Shown here piece by piece: positions 8,609-61,197 of a stretch of DNA of 64,000 bases. Position numbers and translations under genes: made by a program. Under the pieces are notes generated by a model. The model ran no database searches and was not told where the DNA came from. It saw nothing but the letters and a program-made list of their open reading frames with translations. Source of the stretch: Actinomycetota bacterium (GTDB taxonomy: Bacteria; Actinomycetota; Thermoleophilia; BMS3ABIN01); the NCBI GenBank assembly GCA_023382335.1, contig JAMCPM010000012.1, positions 1 to 64,000 of the forward strand. Direction: 5' to 3'. Numbering within the stretch: position 1 is the stretch's first letter; every line of letters begins with the position of its first letter.

Positions 8609-9121
8609 TCAGGCCCAGGCCAGGAAGAGGGCTCCCAGCAGTCCCATCGTCACGCCGACGGCTGTGCCCGCCAGCACGTCGGAGGGATAGTGGACGCCGA
8701 CGTAGACCCGCGTCCAGGAAACGATCAGGGCCAGGCCGAAAAACAGAAACCAGAGCGACGGATGGAAGTAGGTGAAGACGATCGCGGCCGCGAATGACAT
8801 CGCCGCGTGCGCCGAAGGGAACGAGCTGCTCGAGGGCACCTTGACCAGCGGTTCGAGCCCGCTGCCGGCGGCCGCCACGGGCCGCTCACGCCGCAGCACC
8901 GACTTTACGCCATAATTGATAATCATCGTCAACCATACTGTCAACGGGATCATGATCAGGACGCCGCGGGTGTCGCCGCCGAGCCAGAAGACCAGCGCCA
9001 GGCCGACCCAGAAGAAACCGTAATTGCCACCGATCGAGAGCGCGGTCAAAATGGCCTCGAGCGGCTGAAAATGAAACCGCGTCCTCAGCGCCACGAACAG
9101 CCTCTTGTCGAGGCTCTCCAT
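8609..9121 (-). CDS. PAP2-family membrane phosphatase
   Basis: About 170 residues with several hydrophobic helices. The three acid-phosphatase motifs are present: KSVLRRERP, SSSFPSAHA (with PSAH in place of the commoner PSGH) and SWTRVYVGVHYPSD, which carries the catalytic His and Asp. Bacterial members dephosphorylate undecaprenyl pyrophosphate or phosphatidylglycerol phosphate; which one cannot be told here. The start ATG at 9121 has GGAGG about 9 nt upstream and overlaps the stop of the preceding DUF3343 gene by one base, implying coupled translation. Confidence 0.88.
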   Translation of the reverse strand: MESLDKRLFVALRTRFHFQPLEAILTALSIGGNYGFFWVGLALVFWLGGDTRGVLIMIPLTVWLTMIINYGVKSVLRRERPVAAAGSGLEPLVKVPSSSSFPSAHAAMSFAAAIVFTYFHPSLWFLFFGLALIVSWTRVYVGVHYPSDVLAGTAVGVTMGLLGALFLAWA

Positions 9122-9363
9122 CAATGGGCCTCCACCTCGGGCTTATAAATCTCGAAAGCGAGGCCCCGTGACGTCAGCAGTCCCCTGATTTCCTGGAGGT
9201 TGGCGGCAAGCACCTGGAGGGCCAGGCCGCAGAGGCCGGACATGGCGTCCGGAGGCCGCGGCACGACATCGCACCAGAAGCCGGCGTCGATGACGGCGTC
9301 CTCAGCCTCCATCGCCGCGTGGGTGGTATCAAAGAGAAGGACGGCCGTCTCCGGCTCGGTCAC
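9121..9363 (-). CDS. DUF3343 protein (putative Se/S carrier-like)
   Basis: An 80-residue protein matching the DUF3343 family: an N-terminal TAVLLFDTTHAAMEAEDAV stretch, then VVPRPPDAMSGLCGLALQV, where the CG motif corresponds to the conserved cysteine of this family. DUF3343 proteins are often annotated as putative Se/S carriers because of neighbours in selenium metabolism; no such neighbour is in view here. The GTG start sits in the first copy of a 23-bp tandem duplication (9358-9403), so the translation start region has itself been duplicated. Confidence 0.75.
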   Translation of the reverse strand: MTEPETAVLLFDTTHAAMEAEDAVIDAGFWCDVVPRPPDAMSGLCGLALQVLAANLQEIRGLLTSRGLAFEIYKPEVEAH

Positions 9364-9403
9364 GCTATCGTCTCCGGTCCGGTCACGCTATCGTCTCCGG
9401 CCC
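9358..9403. repeat. Tandem 23-bp duplication between DUF3343 and SAM hydrolase genes
   Basis: Two adjacent 23-mers (9358-9380 and 9381-9403) differ at one base; the following bases (9404 on) are a degraded third relative. On the minus strand each copy starts with a GTG/ATG-ACC-GG reading frame that closes on TGA within a few codons. Confidence 0.85.
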
Positions 9404-9405
9404 GG

Positions 9406-10221
9406 TCATGCCATTGTCCTCAAGATTATCTGGTTGCCCGGAGTGATCTGAAAGACCCGCGCGGCATTGCCCTGGTTGACCGAGAAAGAGATCTTGCGGT
9501 AGGAATCCTCGTAGACAAGCAGGTTCTCGGGATCGACGTCCGCGAAAGACTGGACGAAGGGAACCTTCCATTTTTCATCTCCGCAGCGCACCTCCAGCGT
9601 GTCGCCGACAGCGGCTCCCGTCTGCTTGAGTTCCTCGAGGGAAAGGTTCAGCTGCACGTTGCCGAAGCGGTCGGTATATATGACCGTGGCCGAAACGGTC
9701 CTCTCCCCGAAGACAGGCTTGGGTAGATGGAAAGTCTCGAGTCCCCCGGCCGGCACGGCCGCGCCGAGCTTCTCCAGCGGCACGCCGCCGGCCAGGTGAG
9801 CCGCGGCCGGCGCGAACAGGTCCCGTCCCTCAAAGGTCTTGCAGACTTCCGGGAGGCTGTAGATGGAACAGGTGAGCTCGACCGCCGTCTCGACCCCGCC
9901 CAGTTCCCTGGCCGCCAGCGACAGCAGCCCGTTGTCCGGGCCGACCATCAGGGTGCCATCGGCGGCGCGGAGCGCCAGCGGCTTGCGGTGACCGCCGACG
10001 CCGGGGTCCACGACCGCGAGCACAACACTTTTAGGGAGGTAGGGGAGGGCATTGCAGAGGATGACCGCGCCCTGCATGACGTCATGGCGGGGAACCCCGT
10101 GGGTGATGTCGATGATGTCAGCTTCCGGGGTGATTCTCTTGATGACCCCGTGGCAGGTGCCGACGAAATCGTCGGCGAGGCCGAAGTCGCTGAGGAAGGT
10201 GATGAATTTTTGCTCCGTCAT
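9406..10221 (-). CDS. SAM hydrolase (DUF62/SAM hydroxide adenosyltransferase family)
   Basis: About 271 residues, matching the DUF62 family that hydrolyses S-adenosylmethionine to adenosine and methionine and is related to fluorinase and chlorinase. ITFLSDFGLADDFVG at the N-terminus supplies the adenosine-site Asp, VVDPGVGGHRKPLALRA the hydroxide-activating Asp-Arg-His set, and YTDRFGNVQLNL the C-terminal-domain signature. The 21-23-residue halogenase loop was not seen. ATG 10221 is preferred, with GGGG upstream; a start at 10260 would add 13 residues outside the family. It heads a compact run of minus-strand genes and diverges from hsdM. Confidence 0.88.
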   Translation of the reverse strand: MTEQKFITFLSDFGLADDFVGTCHGVIKRITPEADIIDITHGVPRHDVMQGAVILCNALPYLPKSVVLAVVDPGVGGHRKPLALRAADGTLMVGPDNGLLSLAARELGGVETAVELTCSIYSLPEVCKTFEGRDLFAPAAAHLAGGVPLEKLGAAVPAGGLETFHLPKPVFGERTVSATVIYTDRFGNVQLNLSLEELKQTGAAVGDTLEVRCGDEKWKVPFVQSFADVDPENLLVYEDSYRKISFSVNQGNAARVFQITPGNQIILRTMA

Positions 10222-12026: not shown

Positions 12027-13244
12027 ATGAATCATCTTCCAAAAGGATGGAAGAGTGTCCCGCTTGGTGATTTATGCGATCTTGTTCAATACGGATTTAC
12101 CGCAAAAGCGAGCAAGGAGCCTGTCGGTCCAAAATTTCTTAGAATTACTGATATTGTTCCAGAAAGGATTAGCTGGGAAGATGTTCCCTTTTGCGAGCTT
12201 GATGATTCCGCAGTTGGAAAGTATTTACTTCAACCTGGAGATATCGTTATTGCTCGTACCGGTGCAACAACAGGGTATGCCAAACGAATAAAAAAGCCAT
12301 TACGCGCCATTTTTGCTTCATATCTAGTCCGGTTGAGAATAAAAGATGATGTTGATAATCGCTACATAGGTTTAGTTGTCGAGTCCGACTTCTACAAACG
12401 GTTTATTCAGACCAACATAGGTGGAGCAGCTCAACCAAATGCAAATGCAAAAATCCTTACCTCTTTTCCCGTCCCCTTGCCACCACTTAAAGACCAGCAA
12501 ATTATCGCCTCCATCCTCTCCGCCTACGACGACCTAATCGAAAACAACACCCGCCGCATCAGGATACTAGAGGAGATGGCCCAGTCCCTCTACCGCGAAT
12601 GGTTCGTCTACTTCCGCTTCCCCGGCCACGAAAAAGTAAAACTAGTCAACTCCGCCGTCGGAAATATTCCTGAAGGCTGGCAGCTTAGAAAGCTAGGCGA
12701 TGCTTGCATTATTATCATGGGTCAATCGCCAAAGTCAGAATTCTATAACGAAGATGGTGATGGATTACCATTTCATCAGGGTGTTAGGGATTTCGGTTCA
12801 AGATTTCCCCTCGATCGTTTATTTTGCACAGTCACAAATCGCATTGCCGAGGCTGGTGACATTCTCTTCAGTGTACGAGCACCTGTAGGGCGGATTAATT
12901 TAACAAACAAGAAAATTGCAATTGGGCGCGGTCTGTCAGCAATACGGAGCAAGGAAAGCTGGCAAGCTTTTGTTTTTCAGCAACTTAAAGATAAATTTCA
13001 TGAGGAAGACATTATTGGCGGAGGAACCATCTTTAAGTCCGTGACAAAGGCTGATATGCATAACATAGACTTCATTTCCCCGCCCAGCTCACTAATCATT
13101 AAATTTGAGAATATTGTCAGCCCAATTTATTCAGCGATAGAGTATTTCCTTGCAGAAAATGTCAATCTTTGTCAAATGCGAGACATTCTTCTTCCTAGAC
13201 TGATCGCCGGAGAAATTGGCATGAATAGAATCAGCGACCAATGA
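12027..13244 (+). CDS. hsdS: Type I restriction specificity subunit (island A)
   Basis: 405 residues in two tandem target-recognition halves. Each opens with the HsdS pattern LPKGWKSVPLGDLCD or IPEGWQLRKLGDACI. The first half ends VPLPPLKDQQIIASILSAYDDLIENN, which leads into the central conserved helix. The second half ends with a matching C-terminal helix ending ILLPRLIAGEI. HsdS decides the bipartite recognition sequence. The base composition is clearly more AT-rich than hsdM, as usual for exchangeable specificity genes. Its end overlaps the next gene by 4 bp (ATGA). Confidence 0.93.
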   Translation: MNHLPKGWKSVPLGDLCDLVQYGFTAKASKEPVGPKFLRITDIVPERISWEDVPFCELDDSAVGKYLLQPGDIVIARTGATTGYAKRIKKPLRAIFASYLVRLRIKDDVDNRYIGLVVESDFYKRFIQTNIGGAAQPNANAKILTSFPVPLPPLKDQQIIASILSAYDDLIENNTRRIRILEEMAQSLYREWFVYFRFPGHEKVKLVNSAVGNIPEGWQLRKLGDACIIIMGQSPKSEFYNEDGDGLPFHQGVRDFGSRFPLDRLFCTVTNRIAEAGDILFSVRAPVGRINLTNKKIAIGRGLSAIRSKESWQAFVFQQLKDKFHEEDIIGGGTIFKSVTKADMHNIDFISPPSSLIIKFENIVSPIYSAIEYFLAENVNLCQMRDILLPRLIAGEIGMNRISDQ

Positions 13245-36735: not shown

Positions 36736-36794
36736 AATCCGCGGTAGCACTCGTAATAGGAAAAAGTAATTATTATGTTTACTTACTTATAAAT

Positions 36795-36839
36795 TTGACA
36801 GGGCAGTATTTTTTTGTATAATAAGAACAATATTGTTCT
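36795..36839 (+). promoter_or_regulatory. Near-consensus promoter with palindromic operator, island B
   Basis: TTGACA (36795-36800), a 16-nt spacer and TATAAT (36817-36822) form a perfect-hexamer sigma-70-type promoter. Directly behind, 36824-36839 reads agaacaatattgttct, a perfect 16-bp palindrome covering the predicted start site. This is the arrangement of a strong promoter held off by a dimeric repressor. No repressor gene is adjacent. Confidence 0.8.
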
Positions 36840-36853
36840 CTACTTACAAAAAT

Positions 36854-37432
36854 ATGACTCACATTTCACAATTGAAGGACATATCCCAAATTCAGGTCGG
36901 TTACCAAACAAAGGGTCGCGTCCAGGAAAACATTGAAGGCACGCATGCCCTTATTCAGGGCAGTGATTTCGACGGGTGTCATGCTTTGAAGGCAAAAACC
37001 CTATTGTCGTTTAACCCAAAGCGCGATCCTGAACCTTACCTGGTAAAGAGGGGCGATGTATTATTTCAGGCTCGAGGGCTGGATAATATTGCAATTTACC
37101 TTGAACACTCGCTTCAGAAAACCCTTGCGGCCAGCACATTCTATGTGGTCAGAATCAAAGATCGCGAGGTGCTACCACAGTATGCAACCTGGTGGCTAAA
37201 CCAGAAGACGGCGCAGAATTACTTCAAATCCCAGGCATCAGGAACCCGGATGTCGTTTATTTCAAAAAAGACGCTGGCCAATATGAGCATTCCAATCCCG
37301 CCCATACGAATACAGGAAAAAATTATAAGGGCCAGCAGTCTCTTGGCTGCCGAGCGCAATCTTTGCGCTGAACTTGCTGAGCTGAGGGGCAAGCTGGTCG
37401 AATCCATATGCACTCAGGCTGTCCAGAAATAA
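36854..37432 (+). CDS. hsdS: Half-size type I specificity subunit (single TRD)
   Basis: 192 residues, about half a normal HsdS. The pattern is that of a single target-recognition domain plus helix: ISQLKDISQIQVGY, VKRGDVLFQARG, LNQKTAQNYFKSQASGTRM, ISIPIPPIRIQEKIIRASSLLAAERNL. A dimer of such half-subunits could replace a full HsdS. It lies 14 bp before hsdM and is first in the island B unit. An upstream in-frame TTG (36833) is possible, but it falls in the palindrome, so ATG 36854 is preferred although no ribosome site is clear. Confidence 0.82.
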   Translation: MTHISQLKDISQIQVGYQTKGRVQENIEGTHALIQGSDFDGCHALKAKTLLSFNPKRDPEPYLVKRGDVLFQARGLDNIAIYLEHSLQKTLAASTFYVVRIKDREVLPQYATWWLNQKTAQNYFKSQASGTRMSFISKKTLANMSIPIPPIRIQEKIIRASSLLAAERNLCAELAELRGKLVESICTQAVQK

Positions 37433-37445
37433 AGGAGAAAAAACG

Positions 37446-38969
37446 ATGAACCCACACATTTCCCAGAAGGAAATAAACGATGTCGTCTGGCGCGCCTGCG
37501 ACACTTTCAGGGGCGCCGTCGATCCTGCTGAATACAAGAACTATATCCTGACGATGCTCTTCATCAAGTACATGAGCGACCTGACAAAGGATAAGCGTGA
37601 GCAGTACAAGGAGAAGTATAAAGGCGACAAGGTCCGGGTGGAGCGGGCCCTCAGCCGCGAGCGCTTCGTGGTGCCGAAGGACTGCGACTTCGACACCCTC
37701 TACAGTCAGCGCGACAAGGCCAACATTGGCGAAATCATCAACATCGCCCTGGAAAAAATCGAGGATGCCAATAAGTCAAAGCTTGAAAATGTTTTCCGCA
37801 ATATCGACTTCAACAGCGAACCGGCCCTCGGTCAGACGAGGGACCGCAACCGCCGCCTGAAGAACCTGCTGGAGGATTTCGCTGACGAGCGCCTTGATCT
37901 CAGGCCATCACGCATCGGCAACCGCGATGTCATCGGTGACGTCTACGAATACCTGATCGGCCGTTTCGCCGCCGGCGCCGGCAAGAAAGCCGGTGAATTT
38001 TATACGCCTCCTGAAGTTTCCACGCTAATCGCCAAGCTAATGGCTCCCAAGGCCGGCGACCGTATCTGTGATCCCGCCTGCGGCTCGGGTTCGCTGCTGA
38101 TAAAGGTAGGTCACGAGGTCGGCAGCAAGAACTTCGCCCTTTTCGGGCAGGAATCGAACGGCTCCACCTGGTCGCTCTGCCGCATGAACATGTTTCTGCA
38201 CGGCATGGACGGCGCCCGCGTCGAATGGTCCGACACCATCAACAATCCCAGGCTCATCGAGAACGACGAGCTGATGCGCTTCAACGTGGTCGTAGCCAAT
38301 CCCCCGTTCTCTCTCGACAAGTGGGGCCACGAGGACGCCGGTCACGACCGCTTTAACCGTTTCTGGCGGGGCGTGCCGCCAAAGAGCCGGGGCGATTACG
38401 CCTTTGTCACCCACATGGTCGAGGTCGCGCTGGAAGGCGAAGGCAAGGTGGGCGTTGTGGTTCCCCACGGCGTTCTTTTCCGCAGCGGCGCAGAGGGAGT
38501 CATCCGTCAGAAGTTCATTGAGGAGAATATCCTGGAGGCCGTCATCGGCCTGCCCGGTCAGCTGTTTTTCGGCACCGGCATCCCGGTGGCCATTCTGGTT
38601 TTTAACAAGAGCCGCAAGCCCTGGAAGCAGGCCAAGACCAAGCGGGACAAACACATTCTCTTCATCGATGCCAGCCGGGAATTTCAGGACGGCAAGAAAC
38701 AGAACCGGTTGCGGGACGAAGATATCGAGAAAATAGTGGCCACCTTCCGCGATTTTCGGGAAATCGAAAAATATTCGCATCTGGCCACGCTGGAGGAAGT
38801 CGGAGAAGCCGAGTTCAACCTGAACATCCCGCGCTACGTGGACACCTTCGAGGAAGAAGAGGACGTCGACATCCCCGCCGTGCAAAAAGAGATCGAGCGG
38901 ATCGAAGCGGAATTAGCCTCGACGCGGAAAGAGCTGGACCGGCACCTGAAGGAGCTGGGGCTCTCGTGA
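37446..38969 (+). CDS. hsdM: Type I restriction-modification methylase subunit (island B)
   Basis: 507 residues. The N-terminal helical region starts ISQKEINDVVWRACDTFRGAVDPAEYKNYILTMLF; the methylase has GEFYTPPEVSTLIAKLM, motif I ICDPACGSGSLL and motif IV ANPPFS; PHGVLFRSGAEGVIRQK and GLPGQLFFGTGIPVAILV are also HsdM blocks. AAAGGAG precedes the ATG. It belongs to a different HsdM subgroup from the island A protein, so the two systems are not recent duplicates. A terminator with a long loop follows. Confidence 0.95.
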   Translation: MNPHISQKEINDVVWRACDTFRGAVDPAEYKNYILTMLFIKYMSDLTKDKREQYKEKYKGDKVRVERALSRERFVVPKDCDFDTLYSQRDKANIGEIINIALEKIEDANKSKLENVFRNIDFNSEPALGQTRDRNRRLKNLLEDFADERLDLRPSRIGNRDVIGDVYEYLIGRFAAGAGKKAGEFYTPPEVSTLIAKLMAPKAGDRICDPACGSGSLLIKVGHEVGSKNFALFGQESNGSTWSLCRMNMFLHGMDGARVEWSDTINNPRLIENDELMRFNVVVANPPFSLDKWGHEDAGHDRFNRFWRGVPPKSRGDYAFVTHMVEVALEGEGKVGVVVPHGVLFRSGAEGVIRQKFIEENILEAVIGLPGQLFFGTGIPVAILVFNKSRKPWKQAKTKRDKHILFIDASREFQDGKKQNRLRDEDIEKIVATFRDFREIEKYSHLATLEEVGEAEFNLNIPRYVDTFEEEEDVDIPAVQKEIERIEAELASTRKELDRHLKELGLS

Positions 38970-39167: not shown

Positions 39168-40205
39168 ATGTTTCAGCCCAACTGGCGCTATACAGACAAT
39201 ATCGTTAAGAATCTGACGTTCATATCCGAGGCCAGGGCGATAGTGCTAAATGCTCCTCTCGTTCCCAAGTGGGAAGTATCCCTGCGCCGCGACGCATTAT
39301 TAAGAAGCGCCCATTCGTCAACTGCCATCGAAGGAAATCCGCTGACCATGGAAGAGGTCAGCGAACTTGCGGCAGGCCGTGAAGTGATGGTCGCCAGAAA
39401 GGACCGCCAGGAAGTTCTTAACTATCTGCAGGTGCTGGAGCAGCTGGCGGTATTCGCCAAAAAAACCCGCTTCCAGTCCGAAGACCTCCTTGCCATTCAC
39501 AAGCGGGTTACCAAGGGAACGCTTGAAAATTCTGACGAGGAAGGCGCTTTTCGAAAAAGCCAGGTTTTCGTTGGTAACGCCCGCACGGGAAAGGTTGTCT
39601 TTATGCCGCCCTCTTCGCGGCAGGTGCCCAAACTGGTTGATGAATTCCTGACCTGGCTAAATTCGCCCGGCGCCAATGATATTGATCCGGTGCTGCAGGC
39701 GGGGATTGCCCACTACGAACTGGTCAGAATCCATCCCTTTATCGACGGCAACGGCCGCACGGCCAGGGTGCTCGCGACATTGATGCTTTATCGGCGCGGC
39801 TTTGATGTGAAACGGTTTTTTACTCTCGATGACTACTATGACAATGACCGCCCCGGTTACTACGCGGCGCTAAAAGCCGTGGATCAGAAGAATCTGGACC
39901 TGACGGGATGGCTGGATTATTTTACCGGCGGTGTGGCTGTCAGCCTGAAAGTCGTCAAGGAAAAAGTCATCGGCCTGAGCAGAGATATCAAATTCCTCAA
40001 AGATAAGGGCCAGGTGGCGCTTACCGAGCGGCAGATGAAGATAGTGGAGCGGGCGATTCAAAACAATCAGGTTACGGTTGGCGAACTCGCGCAGGAGTTT
40101 GGTATTTCCAGGCAGGCAGGTCTAAAGGAAATGAACAAGCTCGTGGAGCTGGGCGTCGTGAGACTGGTGGGCAAGGGCAGGGGAGCACATTATGTTCTCG
40201 CATAA
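39168..40205 (+). CDS. fic: Fic-family AMP transferase, class II (self-inhibited)
   Basis: 345 residues. The Fic core HPFIDGNGRTAR is at 189-200 with catalytic H189. Upstream, S51-TAI-E55-G56 is the [S/T]xxxE[G/N] inhibitory helix motif, placed N-terminal as in class II Fic proteins, so the enzyme should be held inactive until released. The C-terminal region (about 280-345; VTVGELAQEFGISRQAGLKEMNKLVELGVVRLV) is a winged helix, suggesting DNA-linked control. Fic proteins of this layout are common cargo of type I restriction loci. It lies between hsdM and the patatin/CD-NTase genes; a role in defence is inferred from position. Confidence 0.92.
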   Translation: MFQPNWRYTDNIVKNLTFISEARAIVLNAPLVPKWEVSLRRDALLRSAHSSTAIEGNPLTMEEVSELAAGREVMVARKDRQEVLNYLQVLEQLAVFAKKTRFQSEDLLAIHKRVTKGTLENSDEEGAFRKSQVFVGNARTGKVVFMPPSSRQVPKLVDEFLTWLNSPGANDIDPVLQAGIAHYELVRIHPFIDGNGRTARVLATLMLYRRGFDVKRFFTLDDYYDNDRPGYYAALKAVDQKNLDLTGWLDYFTGGVAVSLKVVKEKVIGLSRDIKFLKDKGQVALTERQMKIVERAIQNNQVTVGELAQEFGISRQAGLKEMNKLVELGVVRLVGKGRGAHYVLA

Positions 40206-40267: not shown

Positions 40268-41215
40268 ATGACTAAAAACATGAATGAACGGTTTCAAATT
40301 CTCTCCCTGGATGGCGGTGGAATTAAAGGTTTATTCTCCGCTGCGGTACTTGCTTGCCTGGAAGAAGATCATGGCACGCAAGTCACTAACCATTTCGATC
40401 TGATCGTTGGTACCTCCACTGGCGGCATCATTGCACTCGGGCTGGGTATGGGGATGCGGCCCCATGAAATTGTTCGTTTCTACATTGAGAGAGGGCCAGA
40501 TATTTTTTCTGGCGGTCGTCTGGCTAGCCTCAAGTGTGGCTTCAGAAACAAATACGACGGCGCGGAACTGGAGCGTGCTTTGAAAGACTGTTTTGGCGAG
40601 AAACGATTAGCCGACAGCCACAAACGTCTTGTTGTTGCCGCATATAACATTGGCGAGGATGACGTGTACCTCTTTAAAACACCGCATCATGATCGACTAA
40701 AGCGTGATTATAAAGTCCCAGCGTGGAAGGTCGCCATGGCAACAAGCGCTGCCCCGACTTATTTTCCGTCTTTCCGTAAATTAGATCATGTTCGGCTGGT
40801 TGATGGCGGCATTTGGGCCAATAATCCGTCCATGGTAGGGATCACCGAGGCTGTCAGCATGCTGGATGTACCTTTGAGCGCCATCCGGGTTCTCAGCCTC
40901 GGCACTACGGATGAGGTTAAGGGTCGTCCCAAGAAACTGGATCGCGGCGGCATCTGCCAATGGGGGGCTCAAGCAATTGAAGTAATTTTACGCGGTCAAA
41001 GTATCGGCGCGACCAATCAGGCAAAGCGCCTCCTAGGACCGGATAGAGTTTTCAGATTGGATCCGAAGGTTCCTGACGGAATATTCAAGCTGGACTTGCT
41101 GAAAGAAAGGGAGCTGCTAGCAAAAGCGGCTCACGAAAGTCGTCACTTTTCGCCAGCATTTTATACGGACTTCATGGAGCACATTGCGCCTAAGTTCAAG
41201 CCGTTACACATTTAG
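40268..41215 (+). CDS. capV: Patatin-like phospholipase, CBASS effector (CapV type)
   Basis: 315 residues. The patatin fold is complete: oxyanion loop DGGGIKG (15-21), nucleophile S50 in GTSTGG, and catalytic D179 in VDGGIWANNP. In CBASS, such enzymes are switched on by a cyclic nucleotide and degrade the membrane of the infected cell. The next gene, nine bases on, is a CD-NTase, which fixes the context. AGGAG precedes the ATG. No membrane segment is visible. Confidence 0.93.
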   Translation: MTKNMNERFQILSLDGGGIKGLFSAAVLACLEEDHGTQVTNHFDLIVGTSTGGIIALGLGMGMRPHEIVRFYIERGPDIFSGGRLASLKCGFRNKYDGAELERALKDCFGEKRLADSHKRLVVAAYNIGEDDVYLFKTPHHDRLKRDYKVPAWKVAMATSAAPTYFPSFRKLDHVRLVDGGIWANNPSMVGITEAVSMLDVPLSAIRVLSLGTTDEVKGRPKKLDRGGICQWGAQAIEVILRGQSIGATNQAKRLLGPDRVFRLDPKVPDGIFKLDLLKERELLAKAAHESRHFSPAFYTDFMEHIAPKFKPLHI

Positions 41216-41224
41216 GGGGAGATT

Positions 41225-42772
41225 ATGAACACGAGCGATAGCATTACCGCAAAAAGCCAGTTAAACAATTTGTTTCGGGGTGTCACCGAGGCACTGGACA
41301 TTCCAGAAAGTCGCTACAAACAAGCTGAGGAGCGTTATCAGGCCATTGGTAAGTGGTTGGGAAGAAACGAATCATCCGTTGCCGCTCTCGCGCCGGAAAT
41401 ATACCCCCAAGGTTCATTTCGCCTAGGCACGGTTATTAAGCCTATTTCTGATGCGGAGGAGTACGACATCGATCTCGTGTGCAAGCTCGATCTCTCAAAA
41501 GAAAAGATCAGCCAGAAACAATTAAAGGAACTTGTCGGGGCTGAAATCAAGAGCTATGCCAGTGCCAACTCCATGGGCTCTGATCCCGAAGAGGGCCATC
41601 GCTGCTGGACATTAAATTATAGTGAGGATGCCCAGTTCCACATGGATGTTTTGCCAGCAATTCCTGATGTTGAAAGTTGGGAAGTTATCCAGCACGGTGT
41701 CTCGGCTTTGCAGGCAGAGAAAAGCATCGCGATCACTGATAACACCCTTTCAAATTATCATCTGCTCAATGACGAATGGCCGCGCAGTAATCCTTCCGGT
41801 TATGCAGACTGGTTTAAGGAACAAATGATGTCTGTGTACGATGAGCGGCGAGTCAAATTCGCTGAATCGACACATGCAAATATTGAGGATGTACCGGATT
41901 ACAAGATCAAAACGCCACTGCAGCAGGCGGTCCAGATTCTAAAGCGACACCGAGACATTATGTTCGCGGATGAGCCGGATAATAAACCGATCTCAATCAT
42001 CATCACAACTCTCGCGGCCCACGCTTACAATAATGAAAGGGATCTCGTTGAGGCTTTGATAAATATTGTCAATGGTATGTCTGCCTTCATTCAGGAGAAA
42101 GACGGCATTTCATGGATACCTAATCCCGTAAACCCGCATGAAAACTTTGCTGACAAATGGAGGACCCACCAAGAGCGTGAATTGAAATTTCGCCGATGGT
42201 TGCTTCAGGTTCGTGCGGATATAAAGAGCGCACTTGGCGCTGGAGACATCCGCGTTATGAGCGAGTCTCTTAAACCACATCTGGGCGAAGGAATAATCAG
42301 TGAGGCTGTCCGCCTTCTTCCAGATACAAGTTCCGGCCGGGTCCCAGCCATTGTACCCAGAGTAACTCGTGTGCCCGATCGATTTAACGTGTCACATCGG
42401 CAAGCCCCAATTTGGCCAATTCGTAATAAATATTCTGTGACCATTTCGGGACGCTATAAATACAACAGCGAGTGGCGCAACTTTCGCCATGACTGCAATC
42501 CTTTGCCAAAGCATTGTGACTTACTTTTTTCGGCACGGACGGATACGCCAGGACCGTTTGAAGTCTATTGGCAAGTGGTTAACACGGGTTTCGAAGCCAG
42601 TACTGCTAGCCAATTACGCGGTGATATTTTCCACTCTAAGACTGCAGGAATGGGTGGATTAACTCAAGCCGAAGGTACCCTATATACCGGAATTCACTGG
42701 GTTGAATGTTTCATTGTCAAAAATGGAGACTGCGTCGCCCGAAGCGGCGAATTTGTAGTGAACATTGAGTAG
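41225..42772 (+). CDS. CD-NTase (cGAS/DncV-like) with C-terminal sensor-like domain
   Basis: 515 residues. The nucleotidyltransferase (SMODS) domain has G63-S64 in PQGSFRLGT, D81 and D83 in EEYDIDLVCKL, and D141 in QFHMDVLPA, so the catalytic set is intact. A helical region follows to about 360. The last ~125 residues (from WPIRNKYSVTISGRYKY; CDLLFSARTDTPGPFEVYWQVVN; GIHWVECFIVKNGD) resemble the AGS-C domain, predicted to sense a ligand and fused to SMODS enzymes. The product should be a cyclic di- or oligonucleotide that activates the patatin. GGGGGAG lies before the ATG. No Cap2/Cap3 ubiquitin-like or HORMA/TRIP13 genes are seen, so this looks like a two-gene CBASS. Confidence 0.92.
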   Translation: MNTSDSITAKSQLNNLFRGVTEALDIPESRYKQAEERYQAIGKWLGRNESSVAALAPEIYPQGSFRLGTVIKPISDAEEYDIDLVCKLDLSKEKISQKQLKELVGAEIKSYASANSMGSDPEEGHRCWTLNYSEDAQFHMDVLPAIPDVESWEVIQHGVSALQAEKSIAITDNTLSNYHLLNDEWPRSNPSGYADWFKEQMMSVYDERRVKFAESTHANIEDVPDYKIKTPLQQAVQILKRHRDIMFADEPDNKPISIIITTLAAHAYNNERDLVEALINIVNGMSAFIQEKDGISWIPNPVNPHENFADKWRTHQERELKFRRWLLQVRADIKSALGAGDIRVMSESLKPHLGEGIISEAVRLLPDTSSGRVPAIVPRVTRVPDRFNVSHRQAPIWPIRNKYSVTISGRYKYNSEWRNFRHDCNPLPKHCDLLFSARTDTPGPFEVYWQVVNTGFEASTASQLRGDIFHSKTAGMGGLTQAEGTLYTGIHWVECFIVKNGDCVARSGEFVVNIE

Positions 42773-42778
42773 GTGAAA

Positions 42779-44083
42779 ATGAGCAGACGAAATGCAAATA
42801 GACCCGGACATAAGAAGACTAAGGTGGGCTGGATCCCAGATGATTGGGAATGCGTTCAACTAAGAACCGTTAGCGATGTCAAAACGGGGCCATTCGGCGC
42901 TCAATTGCACGAGAGAGATTATGTCGAAGATGGAACGCCTATTGTTACTGTTGAGCACTTGGGCGAACAGGGTCTAGTCTATCAAAATCTTCCAAGGGTT
43001 TCTGAAATCGATAAAAAAAGATTGGCGCCATATGTATTGCAGCAGGGGGACATAGTCTTCAGTCGCGTTGGCTCAGTTGACAGAAATTCGTTGATTAGAA
43101 AGAGTGAGGAGGGTTGGTTATTTTCAGGCCGTTTGTTGCGAATCCGACCGCAGGGCGTGAAGCTCGATTCCGCATTTTTAAGCGCATTCTTTCATTTGTC
43201 ATCCTTTAAACATTATGTTCGTAGCATTGCCGTGGGTGGAACCATGCGATGTTTGAACACGTCGCTTCTTTCACAAATTAGTGTTCCATTACCCAATAAA
43301 GCAGAGCAGAAGAAAATCGCGGAAATCCTTTCTACTTGGGACAGGGCGATCGAGCAGACGCGCGAGCTTATTGATGCGAAGAAGTTGCTGAAGAAGGGCC
43401 TGATGCAGCAGCTGCTCACCGGGCGCATGCGGTTTCCCGAATTTGGTGAGCCGGTTCTTGAAATACTTGAGCTGTCGGCTGGGTGGCTAGACGCGAAATT
43501 GGGAGATTGCCTTTTAAGAATCGTTGGCGGGGGGACGCCTGCAAGAGACAAGGGCGCTTTTTGGGGCGGATCCATCCCTTGGGCAACTGTAAAAGATATA
43601 AGCGCCGGCAATGTAGAAAAAACTCAAGAGTGCATCTCACAACTGGGCTTGCAGTCATCTTCGGCAAATCTAATACCACCAAATATCAATATTATTGCAA
43701 CAAGGATGGCGGTTGGTTCCAGTATCCGTTTTACACGTGACGTTGCAATAAACCAAGATTTAAAAGCGCTCTTTCCAAAAAAGGAAATGCTTAGTGGTGA
43801 CTATTTAAAATGGTTATTACTTTATAAAGAGGCGCATTTATCGAGGCTTGGTGGAGGTAGCACAGTCAATGGCATACGTCTTGTGGAACTTAAAGGATTA
43901 AAAATAAAGTTGCCCGAAATTTCCGAGCAGCGCCGCATCTCCGGTGTTCTATTTGAATGTGACAAGGAAATCGAACTTCTCACTACCGAAGTTTCGTTTC
44001 TGTCAGACCAGAAAAAAGGCCTCATGCAAAAACTCCTCACCGGTGAAGTGCGTGTCAAGTTACCCGCGAAGGCTGCTTCGTGA
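42779..44083 (+). CDS. hsdS: Type I restriction specificity subunit, full length (island B)
   Basis: About 434 residues with two target-recognition domains. The first starts WIPDDWECVQLRTVSDVKTGPFG and ends VPLPNKAEQKKIAEILSTWDRAIEQTRELIDAKKLLKKGLMQQLLTG. The second starts GWLDAKLGDCLLRIVGGGTP and ends LPEISEQRRISGVLFECDKEIELL..LMQKLLTGEVRV. The repeated LMQ(K/Q)LLTG helix ends mark the two halves. It follows the CD-NTase by a few bases and overlaps hsdR by 4 bp. Together with the half-size hsdS at 36854 the island has two different specificity genes. Confidence 0.93.
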   Translation: MSRRNANRPGHKKTKVGWIPDDWECVQLRTVSDVKTGPFGAQLHERDYVEDGTPIVTVEHLGEQGLVYQNLPRVSEIDKKRLAPYVLQQGDIVFSRVGSVDRNSLIRKSEEGWLFSGRLLRIRPQGVKLDSAFLSAFFHLSSFKHYVRSIAVGGTMRCLNTSLLSQISVPLPNKAEQKKIAEILSTWDRAIEQTRELIDAKKLLKKGLMQQLLTGRMRFPEFGEPVLEILELSAGWLDAKLGDCLLRIVGGGTPARDKGAFWGGSIPWATVKDISAGNVEKTQECISQLGLQSSSANLIPPNINIIATRMAVGSSIRFTRDVAINQDLKALFPKKEMLSGDYLKWLLLYKEAHLSRLGGGSTVNGIRLVELKGLKIKLPEISEQRRISGVLFECDKEIELLTTEVSFLSDQKKGLMQKLLTGEVRVKLPAKAAS

Positions 44084-47000
44084 ACATCGACCCACCAGAT
44101 CTAAACGAAGACGCCATCTCCAAGCTGCCGGGGCTGCACCTGCTGCAAAACCTGGGGTGGCAGTATTTAACGCCGGCGGAAGCTCTGAGGTTGCGCGGCG
44201 GCAGGCTTGGCAATGTCCTTCTCGAGGATGTGCTGGCTTCCTGGCTCAGGGAGCACAACCGGATCCACTTCAAGGGCAGGGAGCTGCCGTTTACCGAAGG
44301 CAATATCCTCAGTGCCGTTCAGGCGCTTAAGGAAATCCCGCTTGACGGGCTGGTCCGCACCAATGAAAAAATCTACGACCTGCTTTGCCTGGGCAAGAGC
44401 CTGCAGCAGTCGGTGGACGGCGACATCAAGAGCTTTACGCTGGGCTACGTCGATTGGGAGCATCCGGAAAATAATGTTTATCATGTCACCGAGGAGTTCC
44501 CCGTTGAATGCGCGGGTACGCATGAGACCCTGCGGCCCGATATCGTCCTGTTTGTCAACGGCATCCCCCTGGGCGTTATCGAATGCAAGACGCCGCACGC
44601 GAAAAACCCCATCGAGCAGGCCATATCCCAGCATATCCGCAACCAGAAAGACGACGGCATTCCCGGGCTCTTCCTCTATTCGCAGCTGCTGATGGGCGTT
44701 TCCAAGAATGAGGCGAAATATGCCACCACGGGCACGCCGGCTGAATTCTGGTCAGGCTGGCGGGAAGAAACGAAGGGGTTTGATGAAGAGGTGCAACGGC
44801 TTGTCAACATCCCGCTCACCGAGGAGCAGATAGACAGGCTGTTTATCGCCAATGAATGGCTGGCCAGGGAAAAATCCCCGGCAGGGTATGGCAATCTTTC
44901 CCGCCGCGTCACTGAGCAGGACCGGGCCATCTACGCGCTTTGCCGGCCCGAACGGCTGCTGGAGCTGACCTACCGTTTCATCCTGTTCGATGCCGGTGAA
45001 AAAAAGATCGCCCGCTACCAGCAGTACTTCTGCGTCCGCAAGATCATGGACCGCATCCGCGCCCGCGACCACGATGGGCGGCGCCGCGGCGGCGTTGTCT
45101 GGCATACCCAGGGAAGCGGGAAATCCCTGACTATGGTCATGCTGGCCAAGGCGATCGCCCTCGACCCGGACATCACTGACTATAAAATCGTGCTGGTCAC
45201 CGACCGCGTCGACCTCGACGACCAGATCTACAAGACCTTCCATCATTGCGGCAAAGAAGTTGAGAAGGCCAGAACGGGCAAACACCTTTCCGAGATGCTC
45301 ACCGGCAGGAAGCAGCGCATCATCACCACCATCATCGACAAGTTCGATGCCGCCGTGGGCCGCCACGCCGCCTGCAATGATGATCCTGATATCTTTGTGC
45401 TGGTGGATGAGGGGCACCGCGGGCAATACGGCCCGCGCCACGCCAAGATGCGCCGGGTTCTGCCCAACGCCTGTTACATCGGCTTCACCGGTACGCCGGT
45501 GATGAAGAAAGACAGAAACACTGTCGAGAGGTTCGGCGGCCTGATCGACACTTACACCATCGACCGGGCGGTTGAAGACAAGGCCGTGGTGCCACTCCTG
45601 TACGAGGGAAGGCACGTCGAACAGTTCGTGGACGAGCAGGGCATCGACGCCTGGTTCGAGCGGATCACCGCCGGGCTGAGTAAGGAACAGTCCGCTGACC
45701 TGAAAAAGAAATTCTCCACCACCGATCAGCTCAACAAGGCCGAGCAGAAGGTCAAAGCTATCGCCTGGGATATCAGTGAGCACTTCCGCGATAACTGGCA
45801 GGGCACCGGCTTCAAGGGCCAGCTGGTGGCCCAGGACAAAGCCACGGCGCTGCTGTACAAGCAGTATCTGGATGAGTTCGGCATGGTTTCCTCCGAGGTG
45901 CTGATCTCAGGCCCGGACGAGCGCGAAGGCGAGGAGGACCTGTACCGGGAGAACAAAGAGGCGGTGCAACGCTTCTGGAAGGCCGCCATGCAGAGGTACG
46001 GCAGCGAACAGCAGTACAACAAGCAGGTGATCAACGCATTCAAACACGGGGAAGACCCCGAGATCATCATCGTGGTGGATAAACTGCTGACCGGGTTCGA
46101 CGCCCCGCGCGACACCATCCTTTATCTGACCAGGAAGCTCCGGGACCACACCCTGTTACAGGCCATCGCCCGGGTCAACCGCCTGCATGAAGGCAAGCAG
46201 TTCGGCTATATCCTCGACTACCGTGGCGTGCTGGAGAATCTCGACCAGGCGCTGGATCTTTACAGCAGCCTGCCTGAATTCGATGCGTCCGATCTGGCGA
46301 ATATACTCACTGACATCAGCGTGGAAACGGCGACGCTGCCGCAGAAACATTCGCTGCTGTGGGACACGTTCAAGGAAATAAAGAACCGTGGTGACGAAGA
46401 AGAATACGAACTGCTATTGGCGGACGAGGAACTGCGCGGCAAGTTCTACGAGCGGCTGTCGGCTTTTTCCCGCACGCTGGCGGTCGCGCTCTCGAGTGTT
46501 GATTTCCTTGAAGAAACCGCGCCCGAGAAGGTCGAGCGTTACCGGGCGGACCTTAAATTTTTCGCCAAACTGCGGGCCTCTGTCAGGCGGCGCTATGCTG
46601 AAACGGTGGAATTCGCCGAGTACGAGCCAAAGATCCAGAAGCTGCTAGACACGCACGTAGGCACCGGCGAAATTGAGAAGATCACGCCGCTGGTCAGCAT
46701 CTTCGACAAGGACGCCTTCAACGAGGAAGTGGCAAAGCTCCCCGGGGCGGCAGCCAAGGCCGACACCATCGCACATAGGACCGCCCGCACCATTCACGAA
46801 AGAATGCAGGAGGACCCTGCCTTCTACAAACGCTTTTCCCAGCTGCTGAAAGAAACGATCGAGGCATTTCATGAGGAGCGGCTCAAGGCCAACGAGTATC
46901 TGAAGCAGGTCACCGAAATTATGAACGCGGTTGTCAACCGGACGGGTGATGAAATTCCGGTCAGGTTGCGGGAGCACGACGTGGCCAAAGCCTACTTTGG

Positions 47001-47271
47001 CACGCTAAAGGAAATCCTGGGTCAGGCTGCTGATGGCGACCGTGGTACGGATAATGCCCTGGCCGGCGCCGCGCTGGATATTGAGGCTATCATTGAGCGC
47101 AACCGCATTGTTAACTGGACAAACGACCCGGACACTCAAAACCATATGAAGAACGAAATCGAAGACAGCCTGTTTGATTTCAAGGAACAGGCTGGTATTC
47201 AGATTACACTTGATGAAATGGACGTCATCATGGCGCAATGCCTGGATATTGCAAAGGTCAGGCGGCCATGA
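44080..47271 (+). CDS. hsdR: Type I restriction endonuclease subunit R (island B)
   Basis: 1063 residues. The nuclease core is PDIVLFVNGIPLGVIECKTP; the translocase has Walker A TQGSGKSLTM, VLVTDRVDLDDQI, a DEGH box LVDEGHRGQYG, GFTGTPV, and IVVDKLLTGFDAPRD with QAIARVNRLH. All catalytic motifs are present. It differs strongly from the island A HsdR, belonging to another type I subfamily. GTG start within the hsdS stop (GTGA), and its own stop overlaps the next ATG, so hsdS-hsdR-ygjP are translated as one unit. Confidence 0.94.
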   Translation: MNIDPPDLNEDAISKLPGLHLLQNLGWQYLTPAEALRLRGGRLGNVLLEDVLASWLREHNRIHFKGRELPFTEGNILSAVQALKEIPLDGLVRTNEKIYDLLCLGKSLQQSVDGDIKSFTLGYVDWEHPENNVYHVTEEFPVECAGTHETLRPDIVLFVNGIPLGVIECKTPHAKNPIEQAISQHIRNQKDDGIPGLFLYSQLLMGVSKNEAKYATTGTPAEFWSGWREETKGFDEEVQRLVNIPLTEEQIDRLFIANEWLAREKSPAGYGNLSRRVTEQDRAIYALCRPERLLELTYRFILFDAGEKKIARYQQYFCVRKIMDRIRARDHDGRRRGGVVWHTQGSGKSLTMVMLAKAIALDPDITDYKIVLVTDRVDLDDQIYKTFHHCGKEVEKARTGKHLSEMLTGRKQRIITTIIDKFDAAVGRHAACNDDPDIFVLVDEGHRGQYGPRHAKMRRVLPNACYIGFTGTPVMKKDRNTVERFGGLIDTYTIDRAVEDKAVVPLLYEGRHVEQFVDEQGIDAWFERITAGLSKEQSADLKKKFSTTDQLNKAEQKVKAIAWDISEHFRDNWQGTGFKGQLVAQDKATALLYKQYLDEFGMVSSEVLISGPDEREGEEDLYRENKEAVQRFWKAAMQRYGSEQQYNKQVINAFKHGEDPEIIIVVDKLLTGFDAPRDTILYLTRKLRDHTLLQAIARVNRLHEGKQFGYILDYRGVLENLDQALDLYSSLPEFDASDLANILTDISVETATLPQKHSLLWDTFKEIKNRGDEEEYELLLADEELRGKFYERLSAFSRTLAVALSSVDFLEETAPEKVERYRADLKFFAKLRASVRRRYAETVEFAEYEPKIQKLLDTHVGTGEIEKITPLVSIFDKDAFNEEVAKLPGAAAKADTIAHRTARTIHERMQEDPAFYKRFSQLLKETIEAFHEERLKANEYLKQVTEIMNAVVNRTGDEIPVRLREHDVAKAYFGTLKEILGQAADGDRGTDNALAGAALDIEAIIERNRIVNWTNDPDTQNHMKNEIEDSLFDFKEQAGIQITLDEMDVIMAQCLDIAKVRRP

Positions 47272-47996
47272 CCGAGCAGCTGGAACTAATCTATGGCAAG
47301 CGACAGTTCACGGTTAGTGTTGATTTCAACTGTCGCAAGCAATTGACAATCACGGTTCATCCGGATTGCAGTATTTCAGCTATAGCGCCGCAAGGATACG
47401 AGCTGGCTGCCATCAGACAGCGTCTGGAGAGGCGCAGAAGCTGGATTGCCAGACAGATTTCTTTTTTTGAGCAGTTCCAGCCTGCCGCCACTGAGCGAAA
47501 ATATGTCAGCGGTGAGACTCATCACTATCTGGGAAGACAGTACCGGCTGAAGATAAGCAAAGGACAAACCCCGAAGGTGCGACTGGTGGGGCGATTCTTT
47601 AAAGTGGAGTTGCCTGTGACAGACGACAGGGGCAAAGCGCGGGAAGTGATGCAGCAATGGTACACGGAACATGCAAAGATCTATTTAACCCGGCAGATTG
47701 AAAACCGTTGGCCTCTTATTTCAGATCAGGGAGCACAAAAGCCAGCGGTACAATTTCGCCGAATGAAGAAAAGATGGGGATCTTGTTCTAACAAAGGGAC
47801 GATTACGCTAAACACGGAACTTATAAAACTGCCAACTTATTGCATTGATTACGTGATTGTTCATGAACTCTGTCACATGGCACGGGCAGACCATGACAAC
47901 ATTTTCTATCGCAACCTGGGTCGGATCTTGCCAGATTGGGAAATGCGCAAAGATCGTTTGGAAAAGGCTGCTAGCGCAATCACCGTAACTAACTAG
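47268..47996 (+). CDS. YgjP/DUF45-family metallopeptidase
   Basis: 242 residues. The zinc site is HELCHMARADHDNIFYRNL (HExxH plus a downstream His), preceded by RMKKRWGSCSNKGTITLN, both diagnostic of the YgjP-like (DUF45) family. Members of this family are very often the last gene of type I restriction operons, where their role is unknown; regulated breakdown of HsdR is one idea. ATG 47268 overlaps the hsdR stop (ATGA). Confidence 0.9.
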   Translation: MTEQLELIYGKRQFTVSVDFNCRKQLTITVHPDCSISAIAPQGYELAAIRQRLERRRSWIARQISFFEQFQPAATERKYVSGETHHYLGRQYRLKISKGQTPKVRLVGRFFKVELPVTDDRGKAREVMQQWYTEHAKIYLTRQIENRWPLISDQGAQKPAVQFRRMKKRWGSCSNKGTITLNTELIKLPTYCIDYVIVHELCHMARADHDNIFYRNLGRILPDWEMRKDRLEKAASAITVTN

Positions 47997-59985: not shown

Positions 59986-61197
59986 TTGCGTACCTCAATG
60001 AAACTGCTTTTGTCACAAGCAGTTTTCCTGGTAATCCTAGCTTTCGCGGTGTCTTCATGCAGCACGGCTCAATCTCCGGAGATAAATAACGTTGGAGAAG
60101 CATTCTACCGTGGTGATGCCAGCCGAAGCGGGGTATACACTGCCCAAGAAATAATTGAGCTAAAAGGCATTAGGTGGAAGTTCCAGGCTGGAGACAGAAT
60201 CTTTTCTACGCCGGCGGTTGTTGATCAAACAGTTTATTTTGGCAGCGTTAATTCCAATTTTTATGCTGTTGATATTAATTCAGGCCAAGAGAAATGGAGA
60301 AAAAGAACTAACGGAGCGGTTTCTTCTGGCCCCGCAGTTGACAATGGGATTGTTTATATTGGAAGTTTCGATGGCGCTCTCTATGCATTAGATGCAAATA
60401 CGGGTGAAGAGCGGTGGCGTTTCGAAACGCCACCGGCATCCGTGCCTCCGTCTGATAAAAGGATATCGAATCACGGGATTGATTCATCTCCAGTAGTTGT
60501 AAATGGAGTCGTTTATTTTGGCACATATGGAGAGGATTTCTATGCTCTGAAAAGTACCACGGGGGAGAAACTATGGGAGTTTAGGGCAGACTCTCCAATA
60601 TTTTCGGCTGGTGCGGTCGACGATGGTTCAGTTTATTTTGCCAGTCTCACCAGTCTCTATGCACTAGATGCCAGTACGGGTGTAAAAAAGTGGTCTATCC
60701 AGACAGGAAAGAACACGATGTCGAATACACCTTCTGTGAAGGGAGGACTTGTATTCCTTGACGATGTGGAATTCCTACACGCTTTTGATATCAAGAATGG
60801 TAAAGAAAAATGGTCATTCAAATTAGGAAGGCAAGAAACTTCGGACTGTATGGTAGCTGTGGATCAAAACAGTGTCTTCATAGGAGACAGGGACGCCTTC
60901 TATATGATCGACGCGAACAGCGGCGAAAAAAAATGGGAGTTCAAACCTGTCATGTCTTCAGGCGCACCAGGCGCGACAGCGACTCCCCCTACAATTGCTG
61001 GCAATTCTGTCTATTTTGCGGATCTAAGGGGTAACATTGTGTCGCTGGATGTAAAGGATGGCAGCGTTAAATGGAAATATAAGTATCAAAAAGATTTAAT
61101 GCAGGCCCCGACGCCTCTTACTATATCTGACGGAGTTATTTATCTGGGTAGTATGGATGGGAACTTATACGCCATCGAAGGAGGTTCTTCAGCATAA
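59986..61197 (+). CDS. PQQ-type beta-propeller lipoprotein (BamB-like)
   Basis: 403 residues. Lipoprotein signal: MRTSMKLLLSQAVFLVILAF then lipobox VSSC. The rest is repeats of the PQQ propeller blade (VYFGSVNSNFYAVDINSGQEKWR, VYIGSFDGALYALDANTGEERWR, VYFGTYGEDFYALKSTTGEKLWE and so on), about seven. These act as scaffolds; in Gram-positive-type bacteria the partner is unknown. The gene is much lower in GC than both neighbours and looks recently acquired. TTG 59986 has GGGAG upstream; ATG 59998 is an alternative. Confidence 0.88.
   Translation: MRTSMKLLLSQAVFLVILAFAVSSCSTAQSPEINNVGEAFYRGDASRSGVYTAQEIIELKGIRWKFQAGDRIFSTPAVVDQTVYFGSVNSNFYAVDINSGQEKWRKRTNGAVSSGPAVDNGIVYIGSFDGALYALDANTGEERWRFETPPASVPPSDKRISNHGIDSSPVVVNGVVYFGTYGEDFYALKSTTGEKLWEFRADSPIFSAGAVDDGSVYFASLTSLYALDASTGVKKWSIQTGKNTMSNTPSVKGGLVFLDDVEFLHAFDIKNGKEKWSFKLGRQETSDCMVAVDQNSVFIGDRDAFYMIDANSGEKKWEFKPVMSSGAPGATATPPTIAGNSVYFADLRGNIVSLDVKDGSVKWKYKYQKDLMQAPTPLTISDGVIYLGSMDGNLYAIEGGSSA

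Follow-up and report, generated by a model that had tools for sequence, protein, structure and literature searches.

Here we present evidence that a perfect 16-bp palindrome, AGAACAATATTGTTCT, positioned across the inferred start site of a phage-defence island promoter, is probably the promoter-proximal operator (O2) of a type I restriction-modification (R-M) operon, which would be repressed by the product of its own first gene, a half-size HsdS (hereafter the short S), acting alone or together with HsdM. This assignment was reached by comparing sequences from the window, meaning the whole stretch of 64,000 nucleotides analysed here, with those of related loci. Binding of the operator by the short S, repression through that binding and induction through its release are all three steps that we infer. 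Furthermore, the comparison with relatives revealed a conserved gene backbone, a family of dyad operators in a fixed position relative to the promoter, and a variable defence cargo.

Promoter, palindrome and operon in the window

The promoter lies on the plus strand and consists of a TTGACA hexamer at 36795–36800 and a TATAAT hexamer at 36817–36822, separated by a 16-nt spacer. The palindrome, at 36824–36839, starts one base past the -10 hexamer. A preliminary description of this DNA had reported perfect hexamers and a 16-bp palindrome at 36795–36839 and had written the latter as GAAC-N6-GTTC, and both statements proved correct. TTGACA-N16-TATAAT is the sole 12/12 sigma-70 match on either strand of the 64-kb window, and the promoter region has a G+C content of 30%, as against 57% for the window. 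Three perfect palindromes of at least 14 bp were found in the window, AGAACAATATTGTTCT among them; a perfect palindrome of 24 bp, CGGTGGCGTTTCGAAACGCCACCG, is located at 60412–60435. When the 131-bp promoter region was shuffled with preservation of dinucleotides, 0.6% of trials produced a perfect 16-bp palindrome anywhere in the region, and 0.03% produced one in the slot 27–32 nt past the start of the -35 hexamer. The preliminary description had proposed searching the genome for other copies, and no further copy was found at up to two mismatches in the 2.45-Mb genome, with three-mismatch matches occurring at about the control level. Around the palindrome is an imperfect outer dyad (36808–36855), with 24-nt arms that are 75% complementary, which holds two inverted elements of the TTGTA-N7-AACAA type at 36814–36830 and 36833–36849.

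The start site that the hexamers imply falls within the palindrome, so that the left half-site of the latter would not be transcribed, which favours recognition at the level of DNA, and repression. A hairpin in the leader RNA was also considered and is ruled out, because the left half-site is upstream of the inferred start.

All eight genes of the operon lie downstream of the palindrome on the plus strand. The first (36854–37432, with an ATG start codon at 36854) encodes the short S, a protein of 192 aa with one target recognition domain (TRD) and one helix, which is the proposed autorepressor. It is followed by hsdM (37446–38969) and by three cargo genes, encoding a Fic protein with a C-terminal winged helix (39168–40205), a CBASS patatin-like phospholipase (40268–41215) and a CBASS CD-NTase (41225–42772). 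Next are a full-length hsdS with two TRDs (42773–44083), hsdR (44080–47271) and a gene for a YgjP/SprT-like metallopeptidase (47238–47996), which closes the conserved backbone. No WYL domain, as in regulators of the BrxR/CapW type, was found by Pfam in the eight operon genes; PADLOC reported a weak match of the HTH of a WYL model to the Fic protein. Elsewhere in the window, a second HsdS-like reading frame (12027–13244) encodes a full-length protein of 405 aa, which matches the short-S profile weakly, at 54 bits.

Gene order and dyad operators among relatives

Single-protein searches of genome contigs and viral contigs returned no relatives of the window short S, and no close relatives of it were found in approximately 790 genomes of the same phylum and class. 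Relatives of the operon were gathered by an HsdM-alignment scan of 84,980 genomes, which gave the 80 loci closest in HsdM, spread over many phyla. A short S is encoded directly upstream of hsdM in 73 of the 80, and likewise in 14 plasmid loci, chosen by short-S similarity, in which the cargo is variable. The usual gene order is short S-M-(variable cargo)-S-(cargo)-R-YgjP. In plasmid relatives from alpha- and gammaproteobacteria it is short S-M-(cargo)-S-(cargo)-R-YgjP/SprT peptidase, and the cargo types among plasmid relatives include RhuM, Fic, Shedu, DUF6119, TIGR04141, PDDEXK, HAD and DUF4868. In five loci (L025, L056, L064, L069 and L083) a 101-aa gene with a GIY-YIG-like start, SGVYVILGR, is inserted between the short S gene and hsdM; no Pfam match was found for the copy in L025. 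Other loci have DUF2188, 23S_rRNA_IVP or PDDEXK_3 genes in the same gap. Also, in L040, which belongs to the same HsdM family but has no short S, an HTH gene (XRE-like, as judged by eye) takes up the slot upstream of hsdM, at 9002–9883.

The sequence GTA-N7-TAC occurs in 33 of 88 short-S promoters, where dinucleotide shuffles predict 1.6, and its background density over whole loci is 0.022 per 130 bp. These GTA dyads extend to CTGTA-, CAGTA-, TTGTA- or TAGTA-N7/8-inverse, and pairs of them are frequent. One short-S clade has CATCA-N7-TGATG in place of the GTA dyads, and its relatives have CATGA, CATTA or CACCA. The half-site, which is of the GTA-, TCA- or CCA- type and was in part assigned by eye, varies with the short-S clade, and the spacer is constant at N6–N8. 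The enrichment of the family dyads is at N7/N8, as in the geometry of type I half-S proteins.

Three statistical approaches were applied to the 88 promoters. A leave-one-out matrix, whose training sites were picked by their GTA core, gave p < 0.05 in 48 promoters, and a motif-free test for a matching pair of dyads was significant in 17, with about 4 expected. A blind test for the best palindrome at each locus was too noisy, reaching p < 0.05 in just 11. About 40% of short-S promoters have no clear dyad. In viral contigs, a set dominated by one clade, GTA-N7/8-TAC is present in 20–21 of 38 short-S promoters, versus 2 of 24 HsdM loci without a short S (Fisher p about 2e-4). Additionally, the GTA dyad was not found in related E. 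coli operons of the layout M-S-cargo-R-M48, in which the short S is missing. In such E. coli relatives (L196–L201) a GATG-N10-CATC dyad, extended in some to ACGATG-N10-CATCGT, is located approximately 30–50 nt upstream of hsdM and is possibly the operator of a different regulator.

In the paired cases, one dyad (O1) is upstream of the -35 hexamer and the other (O2) is over the start site. Among the 23 loci in which O1, O2 and the TTGAC are all clear, 19 have an O2 that starts 27–32 nt past the start of TTGAC (median 30), and 19 have an O1 that ends 9–14 nt ahead of TTGAC. The distance between the centres of O1 and O2 has a median of 60 bp across 38 loci. The window palindrome starts 29 nt past the start of TTGACA and is thus within the O2 slot of the family. 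The preliminary description had proposed a repressible promoter for the whole unit and likened its palindrome to a LexA box. A repressible promoter for the whole island appears well supported by comparison with relatives, in which dyads occupy the same slot, and by the parallel with the E. coli RptR island (PMC12255303); it is the LexA-like part of the proposal that did not stand.

The short S as candidate repressor

The first gene of the operon had been described as hsdS; it does belong to the HsdS family, and what the description missed is that the protein is of half size and is likely a regulator. Its product has the Methylase_S/TRD fold, and no HTH was found. In an AlphaFold model computed with 50 sequences (pLDDT 96.8), one TRD is followed by a 41-residue helix, the predicted fold being that of a half-S. 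The best structural matches to the model are the single-TRD protein Esub1 (PDB 8VSQ and 8VSR) and the S subunits of type I and type IIB systems. Esub1, a single-TRD S-like protein, is the nearest solved fold. The 8VSR entry is a co-crystal of Esub1 with Prx, a hint that short-S proteins may be targeted by others. This Prx is presumably the streptococcal phage protein paratox.

Across phyla and plasmids the operators accompany the operon whatever its cargo, which indicates that the reader should be a backbone protein. Within the backbone, the short S is the best candidate, because half-S dimers read interrupted palindromes, because its gene is the first and adjoins the operator, and because RptR provides a parallel. 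Two half-S homodimers with such specificity are NgoAV, which reads GCA-N8-TGC, and truncated EcoDXXI, which reads TCA-N8-TGA (PMC3874165). As proposed for the short S, each is a homodimer of a single-TRD S whose target is an interrupted palindrome of fixed spacing. Unlike the proposed repressor, however, they are modification enzymes, with no described role as transcription regulators (PMC3874165).

The RptR parallel comes from an island of enteropathogenic E. coli (EPEC), rptR-M-S-(DarTG2)-R-M48, in which the first gene encodes a proven autorepressor and phage infection raises hsdM more than 15-fold (PMC12255303). As proposed for the window operon, the regulator comes first and is followed by M-S-(defence cargo)-R-metallopeptidase, and autorepression operates through several palindromes overlapping the -10 (PMC12255303). 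RptR itself differs from the short S, being an all-helical protein of 79 aa that binds 6-bp TAGCTA sites and is unrelated to HsdS (PMC12255303). A search of six E. coli loci did not turn up RptR, and the comparison is drawn from the published account (PMC12255303). Control of the window operon by a protein of the RptR type was rejected, as the first gene encodes an unrelated protein of 192 aa and inspection of 36736–36866 revealed no TAGCTA-type site. The controller (C) proteins of type II R-M systems are a further parallel, in that the product of a small first gene controls its own R-M operon from sites around the promoter, but they are helix-turn-helix proteins whereas the short S has a TRD fold; control by a C protein was rejected on the grounds of this fold and of the HTH not having been found.

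In 2023, a staphylococcal half-size hsdS located upstream of hsdM and designated hsdS_short was reported, whose product, in the authors' proposal, stabilises the methylase; they thought target recognition unlikely (PMC10030836). The window operon has the hsdS_short layout, with a single-TRD S of about 190 aa ahead of hsdM and a full-length hsdS. The staphylococcal hsdRSMS system resembles it in having a 191-aa half-S encoded directly upstream of hsdM, with the full-length hsdS after it, and is often found on mobile elements; it differs in that hsdR is first in the operon. Its HsdM and short S are distant, scoring 463 and 30 bits against our profiles. The staphylococcal hsdS_short promoters (L106 and L107) carry two TGTAG-N10-CTACA dyads, the upstream one inside the hairpin of the hsdR terminator; we found no mention of these dyads as operators in PMC10030836. 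Nor did we find a description of any HsdS-type transcription regulator in the literature covered, outside of which lay most subscription journals and all preprints.

In the proposed mechanism, a homodimer of the short S would lie on O2, across the start site, recognising the interrupted palindrome in the manner of known half-S proteins. In many relatives, O1, about 60 bp upstream and just ahead of the -35 hexamer, would be bound as well. Occupancy of the operator would silence the promoter that drives the entire unit (short S-M-cargo-S-R-peptidase), whose level the short S would set by negative feedback. The island would be switched on when the short S leaves the operator.

Alternative readers and wider meaning

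The strongest competitor to autorepression by the short S involves the methylase. Operator similarity tracks HsdM in a partial Mantel test (r = 0.50, p = 0.0005), and with HsdM controlled its correlation with the short S is r = 0.04 (p = 0.22), with short-S distances near saturation. HsdM is no worse than the short S as a predictor of operator similarity. This would agree with an (HsdM)2(short S)2 methylase complex as the species that binds the operators. Such a complex may also methylate one adenine per half-site, so that the promoter would sense free HsdM or the methylation of the operator. Type I enzymes can methylate A, and the inner base is A in the half-sites CTGTA, CAGTA, TTGTA, TAGTA, CATCA, CATGA, CATTA, CACCA and CAGAA, some of them assigned by eye. 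Furthermore, DNA binding by EcoKI is a property of the M2S complex only and of neither S nor M alone (PMC3874165). Against this, the staphylococcal short S expressed in E. coli with M and the long S gave only the motifs of the long S, and no palindromic m6A motif was seen, although a long, rare motif could escape detection (PMC10030836). We consider binding by the methylase complex unlikely, albeit with a real chance of being correct. A somewhat more doubtful proposition is that HsdM, with the short S, methylates its own operators and that the promoter responds to whether the DNA on which it lies is methylated, thereby timing expression of HsdR and the CBASS/Fic cargo. If this were true, expression would be timed at the entry of the island into a new host or at the disturbance of the methylase by a phage, and a restriction-specificity domain would have been turned into a transcription switch.

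It is improbable that the palindrome is bound by an unrelated regulator, such as a host factor or the operon's winged-helix Fic protein, with the short S only assisting the methylase, as proposed in staphylococci. The HTH-like C-terminus of the Fic protein and the deviation of the window half-site from the family would be compatible with such a regulator, as would the finding that full methylation in E. coli, from a foreign promoter, needed the short S (PMC10030836). However, operators are present in relatives without Fic in the operon, where the cargo has changed and the operators have stayed; the palindrome is single in the genome, unlike the sites of a host regulon; and the dyads accompany the presence of a short S.

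The promoter in the window does depart from its family in several respects. It does not fit the GTA family matrix (p = 0.36), and the motif-free two-operator test is not significant (p = 0.95), with just a degenerate dyad, AAGTAATTATTATGTTTACTT at 36764–36784, centred 57.5 bp upstream of O2, as a weak candidate for O1. From its position and symmetry, we infer that the palindrome may be AGAA-N8-TTCT, with a half-site that has diverged while keeping its slot; a CAGAA half-site, comparable with this AGAA reading, occurs in L046 and L058. The closest relatives differ from it: in L026, with an HsdM 86% and a short S 45% identical to those of the window, CAGTA-N7-TACTT is found at O1, and L115 and L144, with an HsdM 70% identical, have a perfect CAGTA-N7-TACTG at both O1 and O2. 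The lack of a significant second operator and of a match to the family matrix could mean that the palindrome is a chance occurrence or the relic of a control lost by this operon. This is very unlikely in view of the low probability (3e-4) that a perfect 16-bp palindrome would fall by chance in the exact O2 slot, and of a short S whose frame is intact and whose fold is well predicted. SOS control through LexA or a LexA-like protein can practically be dismissed: the genome does have one LexA gene and GAAC-N6-GTTC does resemble GAAC-N4-GTTC, but the spacer is N6 and not N4, the palindrome is single-copy, the half-sites of the relatives are different, being of the GTA-, TCA- and CCA- types, and no such boxes were found at the lexA locus of this genome.

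The most likely mechanism is that the half-size specificity subunit represses its own operon, which would constitute a new form of autoregulated R-M operon. RptR is the one solved case that we found of how type I restriction islands and their lethal cargo are kept quiet. If our proposal is true, there is a second, apparently widespread way of restraining phage-defence islands, in which the regulator is a half-size specificity subunit. Short-S genes of unexplained function would gain a role, and the TRD fold would join the recognised types of transcription repressor. The proposal predicts operator sequences for dozens of loci. It would also make the short S an obvious potential target for phages; a single-TRD protein and a partner protein, Prx, have already been co-crystallised.
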